From the NCBI GenBank assembly GCA_945887835.1, contig CAMCZQ010000015.1, positions 1-32,950 of the forward strand: DNA of 32,950 nt, read 5' to 3'. Numbering within the stretch: the first letter of the stretch is position 1; every line of letters starts with the position of its first letter. The notes beneath the pieces were generated by a model that saw only the letters and a program-made list of their open reading frames with translations, ran no database searches and had not been told where the DNA came from. Source of the DNA: Bordetella parapertussis (GTDB lineage Bacteria > Pseudomonadota > Gammaproteobacteria > Burkholderiales > Burkholderiaceae_B). Both the position numbers and the translations under genes were made by a program. Of this stretch, positions 660 through 1,889 are shown in pieces.

Positions 660-763
660 CACCTCAGCTTTGAGGCGACATTAGAATTTTTACGCTTCAT
701 CAGTGAGGCGATATTCTTACATTTACGCTTCAACTTTGAAGCGATTAAATATATAATACGCTT
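660..763 (+). repeat. 33-bp-periodic array of palindromic sites upstream of fic (probable operator array)
   Basis: Three related dyads start at 660, 693 and 726, exactly 33 bp apart. The third, CGCTTCAACTTTGAAGCG (726-743), is an almost perfect palindrome with 8-bp arms. The second, CGCTTCATCAGTGAGGCG (693-710), and the first, CACCTCAGCTTTGAGGCG (660-677), are imperfect versions. Over 19 bp each matches the third at about 15 positions. A fourth half-site, CGCTT at 759-763, falls in the same register and abuts the fic ATG. The third dyad covers the expected -35 region of the fic promoter, so occupancy should block transcription. The likely binder is the C-terminal winged-helix domain of Fic itself; that is inference. 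Confidence 0.7.
752..757 (+). promoter_or_regulatory. fic -10 box (TATAAT), predicted leaderless start
   Basis: A perfect TATAAT lies 7 nt upstream of the fic ATG (765), which places the expected transcription start at or next to the A of the start codon. No Shine-Dalgarno sequence precedes the ATG. The -35 region (about 729-734, weak match) lies inside the third palindrome of the array. Confidence 0.6.
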
Positions 764-764
764 T

Positions 765-1889
765 ATGTATCTCTGGCAAGCGCCCAATTGGCCCCATTTT
801 CAATACGATCTGACTGCTTTGCAGCCGACTTTGGCGCGGGCGCGGGTCGCGCAGGGGCGCGTGCTCGGTCTGGCTGGTACGTTGCAGTTGGTCGACCTGG
901 CTCAATTAGAGCTTGAGGGTTGGGCAGCCGAGGCCGTCGCCACCGCCGAAATCGAAGGCGAGGTGCTGCAAGTTCACTCAGTGCGTGCCTCGGTCGCCCG
1001 TAGGCTTGGCTTGCCCGGCGCACCGAATGTGTTTCGCGATGCCCGTACCGAGGCCACGCTTGATGTGTTGCAAGCTGCGATCAAACGTTGGCAACATCCC
1101 TTAAGCGACGAAGACCTGTTCACGTGGCAGGCGGCGTTGTTTCCTGAAGGGCGCAGTGCGGGCGTCAAGATACAAATAGGTGCATATCGACAGCACACTC
1201 AGGCCATGCAGATTGTCACAGTCAAGTACGGTGCACCAGATATTGTTCATTACCAGGCGCCTGCTTCAGTTGATGTGCCCGCGCAGATGATGCAATTGAT
1301 TGCTTGGTTTAATGACAGCGCAAAGAGTTGCGATGGCCTAGTGCGCGCAGCGCTTGCACACTTATGGTTTGAGGCGATTCACCCCTTCGAGGATGGTAAT
1401 GGTCGAGTGGGGCGTGCGTTCAGTGAGTTGGCGCTTGCGCAAGACATGCAAAGTTCGCAGCGTATCTGGAGCTTATCCCAACAAATCATGAATGATCGTT
1501 CGGGATACTACGAGCAACTACAAGCCGCAACGTCAAGTGACACACTTGATGTGACACCTTGGGTTGAGTGGTTTGTTGCTTGCATCGAACGCGCTGCACA
1601 GGCGGCGCTTAAGCAAATGCAAGCCGCAATTGAAAAGACACGCTACTTTTCAACGCTCAGAGATTTGCACCCCACGCTTACTGCGTCTCAATTAAAGATC
1701 TTGGGGAAGCTGTTTGAGGCGCAGCCTGAGGGGTTTTTAGGGGGAATGAGCACGTCTAAATATGTGAACATTACTGGCCAGTCACGCGCCACCGCCTATC
1801 GCGAGCTCACAGACATGAGTCAGTTGGGGTTGCTTGAGCAATACGGTCAGGGGCGAGGTGCGCGTTACCGAATCGTGCCTCTAAGTTAA
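765..1889 (+). CDS. Fic family AMP-transferase with N-terminal inhibitory motif and C-terminal winged helix
   Basis: Fic proteins transfer AMP (AMPylation) from ATP to hydroxyl side chains of target proteins. The 374-residue protein has an N-terminal DUF4172-like domain starting MYLWQAPNWPHF, a central Fic core with the full catalytic motif HPFEDGNGRVGR at residues 206-217 (His206 catalytic), and a C-terminal winged-helix region (about 300-374). A class II inhibitory motif, TAEIEG at residues 60-65 (fits [S/T]xxxE[G/N], with Glu64 the autoinhibitory residue), precedes the core, so the enzyme is probably self-restrained without a separate antitoxin gene. The start is fixed by the TATAAT placed 7 nt upstream; no ribosome binding site is seen. 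The stop overlaps the convergent HAD gene by 4 nt (TTAA). The C-terminal domain probably binds the palindrome array upstream. Target proteins are unknown. Confidence 0.9.
   Translation: MYLWQAPNWPHFQYDLTALQPTLARARVAQGRVLGLAGTLQLVDLAQLELEGWAAEAVATAEIEGEVLQVHSVRASVARRLGLPGAPNVFRDARTEATLDVLQAAIKRWQHPLSDEDLFTWQAALFPEGRSAGVKIQIGAYRQHTQAMQIVTVKYGAPDIVHYQAPASVDVPAQMMQLIAWFNDSAKSCDGLVRAALAHLWFEAIHPFEDGNGRVGRAFSELALAQDMQSSQRIWSLSQQIMNDRSGYYEQLQAATSSDTLDVTPWVEWFVACIERAAQAALKQMQAAIEKTRYFSTLRDLHPTLTASQLKILGKLFEAQPEGFLGGMSTSKYVNITGQSRATAYRELTDMSQLGLLEQYGQGRGARYRIVPLS

Follow-up and report, generated by a model that had tools for sequence, protein, structure and literature searches.

A helically phased array of dyads as the likely operator of a self-repressed DUF4172-Fic gene

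A Fic gene in the 32,950-nucleotide stretch of DNA analysed here (hereafter referred to as the window) is preceded by a regular series of palindromes, raising the question of what this array is for and which protein reads it. We consider, with a probability of about 0.8, that the array is an operator through which a single-gene class II Fic enzyme represses its own expression. The preliminary description of this locus had placed dyads at 660, 693 and 726, and a half-site at 759, in one exact 33-bp register. All of these half-sites were found there. The array contains seven half-sites in a single register: CACCTCA (660-666), TGAGGCG (671-677), CGCTTCA (693-699), TGAGGCG (704-710), CGCTTCA (726-732), TGAAGCG (737-743) and CGCTTTA (759-765). 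The forward half-sites begin at 660, 693, 726 and 759 and the reverse half-sites at 671, 704 and 737, each series advancing by exactly 33 bp. The arms of the three palindromes match at 6/7, 6/7 and 7/7 positions, so that the third is nearly perfect, as had been described, and reaches 8/8 if CGCTTCAA is included. The half-site at 759 keeps the register but, rather than abutting the start codon, it overlaps it, its last base being the A of the ATG at 765.

The best three-palindrome periodic score in the region 646-764, with every start and any period from 20 to 44 allowed, was 19/21, whereas 1000 dinucleotide-preserving shuffles of the same region gave a mean of 12.1 and a maximum of 16 (0/1000 at 19 or above). 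The array, with its three palindromes placed exactly 33 bp apart, is thus confirmed as real. The three 33-bp blocks are only 19-22/33 identical in pairwise comparisons, and the array is therefore not a recent perfect tandem repeat. A set of three outer dyads (671-699, 704-732 and 737-765) with a spare half-site at 660 describes the array just as well, and the comparison with relatives favours this second description. Its elements are as follows.

660 to 666, forward strand: half-site CACCTCA, spare and most upstream, with one mismatch
671 to 699, no strand: outer dyad 1, TGAGGCG-N15-CGCTTCA, an exact match in its own genome to TGARGCG-N15-CGCYTCA
704 to 732, no strand: outer dyad 2, TGAGGCG-N15-CGCTTCA, an exact match to the same pattern
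726 to 743, no strand: inner palindrome CGCTTCAACTTTGAAGCG, the unit of the preliminary description, taken here to be the place where outer dyads 2 and 3 meet
737 to 765, no strand: outer dyad 3 (proximal), TGAAGCG-N15-CGCTTTA, with one mismatch, its last base being the A of the ATG

The gene behind the array, identified from Pfam, PADLOC and PDB matches, has the following parts.

765 to 1889, forward strand: Fic gene, 374 amino acids, with DUF4172, Fic and C-terminal winged-helix domains
768 to 1013, forward strand: DUF4172 domain, aa 2-83 (Pfam)
1677 to 1880, forward strand: C-terminal winged-helix domain, about aa 305-372 (Pfam match at aa 325-370; outer limits approximate)
1782 to 1808, forward strand: putative recognition helix SRATAYREL, aa 340-348, with R341, A342 and Y345 as candidate specificity residues

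The DUF4172 (5.6e-24) and Fic (4.6e-14, aa 112-223) domains were clearly recognized by Pfam, and the winged helix was matched by DIP2311-like_C right at the cut-off (4.4e-6, 27.3 bits versus 27); the recognition helix was placed by the wHTH pattern. The closest solved chain is that of CbFic2 (PDB 8cil, 2e-81 over aa 2-370). The protein also matched the PADLOC SoFic profile PDLC03963 (1.3e-48, 164.2 bits), and did not reach the cut-off of the NCBIfam SoFic equivalog NF046030 (76.2 versus 550 bits). An inhibitory-helix motif, TAEIEG (aa 60-65), precedes a complete Fic motif, HPFEDGNGR (aa 206-214), in the arrangement that defines class II Fic proteins, in which an (S/T)xxxE(G/N) helix lies before HPFx(D/E)GN(G/K)R. 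Residues E64, G65, H206, P207 and D210-R214 were invariant across 55 sequences, as was R346 of the recognition helix. A Fic domain followed by a C-terminal winged helix is the architecture of self-repressing, CccR-like Fic-wHTH proteins. A search of the flanks for a separate antitoxin gene, covering ORFs of at least 100 aa, found a transporter-like gene upstream (7-645, weakly NicT-like, scoring 26 bits where the cut-off is 450) and a haloacid dehalogenase gene downstream, converging on the Fic stop codon.

We investigated the sequences upstream of close and distant orthologues, 28 loci in all, obtained by scanning named genomes. Eleven of the 14 close orthologues (L005-L018) had half-sites with at most one mismatch at -39 (forward), -28 (reverse) and -6 (forward), and 11 had the reverse half-site at -61; L015 and L016 lacked the -6 half-site and L009 and L010 the -61 half-site, whereas in L013 the spacing was kept but shifted, because its start codon sits further downstream. 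Three loci (L005-L007) had seven half-sites, as in the window, and L008 had eight, with an extra reverse half-site one step further upstream, at -127; the spacing alternated between 22 and 11. The distant orthologues had the same layout with different letters: TGAGCCG/CGGCTCA in L020, L022, L024, L025 and L026, and TGAGTCG in L021. The expectation that motif and spacing would recur upstream of orthologues was therefore borne out for close orthologues (11/14), but the letters CGCTTCA/TGAAGCG were not conserved in distant ones, because they follow the recognition helix (see below). The genes of L005-L008 are 97-99% identical to the window Fic gene, with a near-identical upstream stretch in three of them. 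The titles of the corresponding MAGs (Methylopumilus, Gammaproteobacteria, Alcaligenaceae and Bordetella parapertussis) are probably unreliable.

The family was then sampled more broadly. We collected DUF4172 genes from 399, 369 and 299 genomes, drawn at the levels of order, class and phylum, respectively; matches were present in 71/399, 71/369 and 69/299 of these genomes (the draws overlap slightly), and in 81/247 Bacteroidales. Most of the places were fetched, the weakest or fragmentary ones being left out, and this yielded 222 genes by profile, 219 with a usable start and 185 representatives at 90% identity. The constant element before DUF4172-Fic-wHTH genes was the outer dyad, TGnnnnG-N15-CnnnnCA, which spans 29 bp and has half-sites 22 bp apart. 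A TG..CA dyad of this span, with at least 6/7 arm matches, was present before 140/184 DUF4172-Fic genes and 3/111 control genes drawn from the window and L005-L026; all three control matches were to Fic's own operator, encountered twice from a divergent gene (L016, L022) and once from a Fic fragment (L025). In the same sequences as the controls (window and L005-L026), the TG..CA dyad was found for 17/18 Fic representatives. If the TG..CA ends were not required, the values for Fic and control genes were 159/184 and 21/111. In L016 and L022, the Fic operator sits between divergent genes and may govern a second promoter there. Span-29 dyads with at least 6/7 arm matches were present in 158/183 promoters, as against a mean of 31.9 and a maximum of 40 in 20 shuffles, and 126 of the 158 began with TG; about 25/183 promoters had no such dyad, which counts against the operator reading.

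The preliminary description took the inner palindrome, CGCTTCA-N4-TGAAGCG, as its unit, and these palindromes, with their 33-bp period, could be the dimer sites instead of the outer dyads. Of those in the window, the one at 726-743 has the best-matched arms, and 10/15 facing pairs of the TGAAG group had an inner spacing of 11. Across the family, however, adjacent outward-facing half-sites were 22 bp apart in 165/186 cases (21 bp in 10), one such pair per gene being 22 by construction, whereas adjacent facing half-sites were 12 (46 cases), 11 (10), 22/23 (23) or 32/33 bp (12) apart, these spacings together accounting for 91/118. Like-oriented neighbouring half-sites 20 bp apart also recurred (12 cases). 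Since the method fixes one outward pair per gene, the unbiased evidence is provided by the count of exact 7-bp inverted repeats at a spacing of 22, which were present in 91/182 promoters and 1/182 far-upstream stretches, the count in shuffles being about 1.4. A choice-free scan of spacings peaked at 22 and at 20 (91 and 90 of 182 promoters, respectively). We therefore regard the inner palindromes as unlikely dimer sites; a dimer probably occupies the outer dyad, with its 22-bp arm spacing.

Additional half-sites were not placed at random with respect to the defining dyad. In 121 promoters, 166 of 258 extra half-sites lay at offsets of 33/34 (69), 44/45 (48) or 53-55 bp (49), and there were 2.13 extra half-sites per promoter, versus 0.40 with shuffled flanks. 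These offsets correspond to about three, four or five helical turns, and the dyads therefore mostly keep a common face of the DNA, the distance between them varying. The idea of a regular array along one face of the DNA was thus supported, with two amendments: the exact 33-bp step is specific to a lineage, and more than one site is usual in the family, the preliminary description having noted that ordinary autorepressors use one or two. On the strength of these comparisons, we consider that the phased array is a family trait, its layout being shared by relatives in two phyla, and that the exact 33-bp period is this lineage's version of it.

The position of the proximal dyad bears on the function of the array. 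Two promoter elements were predicted.

729 to 734, forward strand: candidate -35 element TTCAAC, 17 bp upstream of the -10 element, read from the sequence
752 to 757, forward strand: candidate -10 element TATAAT, read from the sequence, with a predicted transcription start at about 764-765

The inverted repeats (671-765) thus lie over the predicted TTCAAC/TATAAT of the gene's own promoter, as in CccR-like systems. Among the 158 family promoters with a span-29 dyad, 49 had a dyad ending on the A of the ATG, and these 49 could be aligned, with a -35 element TTGC at -35..-32 and a -10 element of about CATAAT at -12..-7. A Shine-Dalgarno-like motif was present in 4/49 of these genes, versus 41/135 of the others. 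A proximal dyad placed around the promoter and ending on the A of the ATG suggests a leaderless, self-repressed gene, and the Fic transcript is probably leaderless. Inverted repeats adjoining a start codon might also fold into hairpins in RNA or DNA, act as a terminator or have arisen by chance. We consider this extremely improbable, as the repeats lie upstream of the predicted transcription start, their letters change in step with the helix of the protein (see below) and their counts exceed those in shuffled sequences.

The identity of the binder was addressed by covariation between protein residues and dyad bases, in a main set of 121/185 representatives (span-29 dyad with at least 6/7 arm matches, TG start and a protein of more than 330 aa), in which the dyad of L081 is probably mis-called. 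Residue 342 led base 3 in normalised mutual information (0.77) and residue 341 led base 4. Base 5 was led by residue 330, followed by 345, and at base 6 residue 341 tied with residue 98. R74 of the DUF4172 domain was ahead of wing residue 363 at base 7, and wing residue 362 led base 8. The pairing between residue 342 and base 3 was A-A in 59 genes, D-C in 48, R-G in four and other combinations in 10 (n=121). Operator similarity followed the wHTH domain barely more closely than it followed the remainder of the protein (0.34 and 0.29, respectively, as partial rank correlations).

Shared ancestry was taken into account with a co-change test on a quick LG+G4 tree of residues 1-300, in which 364 columns were ranked, with p-values given per column. 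Residue 341 ranked first of 364 for bases 4, 5 and 6 (p=3.4e-5, 1.5e-4 and 7.9e-6, respectively), and residue 342 ranked first for base 3 (p=3.6e-4, with only five changes). After correction for 364 columns, the 0.05 level was passed by residue 341 at bases 4 and 6, though not at base 5, and was not passed by the 342/base 3 pairing; outside the wHTH domain, R74 (bases 7, 8 and 10) and P84 (base 4) also passed. R74 ranked first at bases 7 and 8, and tied with wing residue 363 for first place at base 10. In 57 disjoint pairs, residue 341 ranked first for base 5 (p=3.1e-5, with column 50 close behind) and second for base 4, and lay outside the top six for base 6, other columns leading bases 4 and 6; residue 342 ranked sixth for base 3, where only three pairs differed. 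Some of these tests are weak. R74 (window 984-986) lies beside the inhibitory helix, and its co-changes with bases 7, 8 and 10 may reflect a DNA contact or the marking of a clade.

Ten genomes had two copies of the gene. Four of them (G481, G499, G942 and G1015) combined different helices with different operators. The same helix occurred twice in three others, with both operators matching in G182 and G522, and one promoter without a good dyad in G355. Of the remaining genomes, G444 had one dyad that is probably mis-called, and G744 and G450 each had one copy without a TG..CA dyad. A further set of 31 loci comprised 30 from Bacteroidales and L272, from a clostridial genome; 12/31 reached 6/7 arm matches, eight of these starting with TG. 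At a looser limit of 5/7, at which shuffles gave a mean of 1.8 and a maximum of 5 of 31 and 13/31 loci were unscorable, D342 was accompanied by C at base 3 in 18/18 scorable Bacteroidales loci, which is a consistency check without contrast, because D342 was the only residue in these loci. In the left arm of the same 18 loci, I345 was accompanied by A at base 5 (5/5) and other residues by G (13/13). In Clostridia, the family was found in 1/245 genomes, and its locus, L272, had no TG..CA span-29 dyad near the start. Many of the dyad right arms in the Bacteroidales loci L273-L302 overlap a TATATTTG-like element, which we take to resemble the -7 promoter box of Bacteroidales.

The preliminary description had attributed binding to the winged helix of the Fic protein itself. 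Covariation at residues 341, 342 and 345, the paralogue pairs and the lack of any other gene common to at least 4/23 sequences (two genes of the window and L005-L008 apart) all speak for this attribution: the binder is probably Fic's own winged helix, and the lettering of the half-sites looks like a code read by its recognition helix. Self-regulation may extend beyond DUF4172, given the excess of inverted repeats, with different sequences and spacings, before Fic_N (SoFic-type) genes of the same order (L242-L271); in these 30 promoters, which do not form a negative control and for which start codons were guessed by reference to the Fic motif, counts were raised at spacings of 18-26 and 42-46. 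In two genomes, a DUF4172-Fic gene also has a Fic_N gene no more than about 2.4 kb away (G078:C91:16373-18750 and G028:C1:537319-539454).

Alternatively, a separately encoded host regulator might bind the palindromes and control the Fic gene. The match of the Fic winged helix only at the Pfam cut-off leaves room for such a protein. The lettering of the half-sites nevertheless follows the helix of Fic itself, and paralogues within one genome have different operators. No conserved neighbouring regulator was detected: within flanks of up to 3 kb, no gene was common to at least 4/23 sequences, save two shared by the window and L005-L008. In the 3.66-Mb assembly of the organism (87% complete), exact outer dyads occurred only in the array. 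Twelve other places were examined (six one-mismatch outer dyads, one exact inner palindrome, on C139, and five one-mismatch inner palindromes), and nine of the 12 lay inside ORFs of at least 80 aa, the exceptions being on C149, C199 and C70; a regulon served by the same motif was rejected on these grounds. At up to two mismatches, matches in this genome were more numerous than for a backward-pattern control (91 versus 14 for the inner palindrome and 89 versus 34 for the outer dyad), an excess that a regulon of the separate protein could explain and because of which a small regulon may exist. Taken together, these observations make a separate regulator very unlikely, and the array appears to serve only the Fic gene. 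Another DUF4172 domain survives in the same genome as a remnant of 29 residues (G000:C14:10151-10237), the surroundings of which (L165) yielded no more than a weak dyad (score 5.5).

If Fic reads its own operator, a Fic dimer would set its two C-terminal winged helices on both arms of one 29-bp outer dyad, the half-sites of which are 22 bp, or two turns, apart (about 75 Å). The proximal dyad (737-765) would enclose the -10 element, the predicted transcription start and the A of the ATG, and its occupancy would therefore block RNA polymerase. Two more dyads, whole turns upstream, would place further dimers on the same face of the DNA, where possibly cooperative binding would make repression tighter or sharper.

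Self-repression by a Fic-HTH protein is already known. CccR of Yersinia pseudotuberculosis represses its own promoter through palindromes near the -35 and -10 elements, and requires dimerisation to do so (PMC9755527). The window Fic resembles it in its C-terminal DNA-binding domain and in the inverted repeats near the -35 and -10 elements of its own promoter, but not in layout: the CccR footprint covers one pair of 10-bp arms with 26 bp between them, whereas the window arms are 22 bp apart, with TG..CA outward, and the CccR arms, as we read them, face the opposite way. This distinction is based on the published description of CccR. The recognition helices of CccR are 70.2 Å apart (PMC9755527), which is close to the approximately 75 Å of 22 bp of B-DNA by our own arithmetic, although the spacing of its operator is larger. 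CccR is a T6SS effector, and the accessible part of its description mentions no array (PMC9755527).

CbFic2 of Coxiella burnetii shares the DUF4172-Fic-wHTH architecture of the window Fic, and its DNA binding is linked to dimerisation (PMC10628234). According to the accessible text, it was studied as a host-directed effector, with a specific promoter site raised by the authors as a possibility only; it bound random DNA, even without its HTH, and of the random DNAs of 5 to 60 bp used, 20 bp was enough for dimerisation, and fitting the crystal dimer onto DNA of this length was considered difficult (PMC10628234). These findings count against the operator reading, and dimerisation on 20 bp would not be expected if both arms of the 29-bp dyad were strictly needed. 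As CbFic2 dimerises and alters its activity on DNA (PMC10628234), DNA binding by the window protein, in which the inhibitory-helix and Fic motifs are intact, might mainly switch the enzyme between an AMPylating monomer and a deAMPylating, DNA-bound dimer, with repression as a side effect. The recurrence of a proximal dyad over the -10 element and start codon suits an operator and would not be needed for an enzyme switch alone, and we find this alternative doubtful. An equally tentative proposal is that the phased array is both promoter and enzyme switch: operator-bound dimers would be inactive or deAMPylating and displaced Fic would AMPylate, so that one specific DNA ligand would couple repression and activity, and helix and operator would have co-diversified into insulated pairs with a readable code (base 3 paired with residue 342, bases 4-6 with 341 and base 5 with 345).

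The anti-phage Fic proteins SoFic/EcSofic share class II status and a C-terminal domain with the window Fic, and EcSofic is a dimer; EcSofic has a downstream 47-aa antitoxin, AS1 (PMC12249575), whereas the window Fic has a converging gene at its stop codon. The terms DNA-binding, HTH and transcription are absent from the main text of that paper (PMC12249575). No description of phased family-wide arrays or of a recognition code was found among the open-licence papers listed for DUF4172, Fic autoregulation and SoFic.

The DNA read by the winged helix of DUF4172-Fic enzymes was left open in the CbFic2 study, which, in its accessible part, used random DNA (PMC10628234). We propose here a defined site for every gene and a dimer spacing for structural studies, and the natural pairs of helix and operator open the coupling of DNA binding to AMPylation to direct experiment. 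Our results also suggest how the amount of a lone Fic enzyme may be held low with no separate antitoxin.
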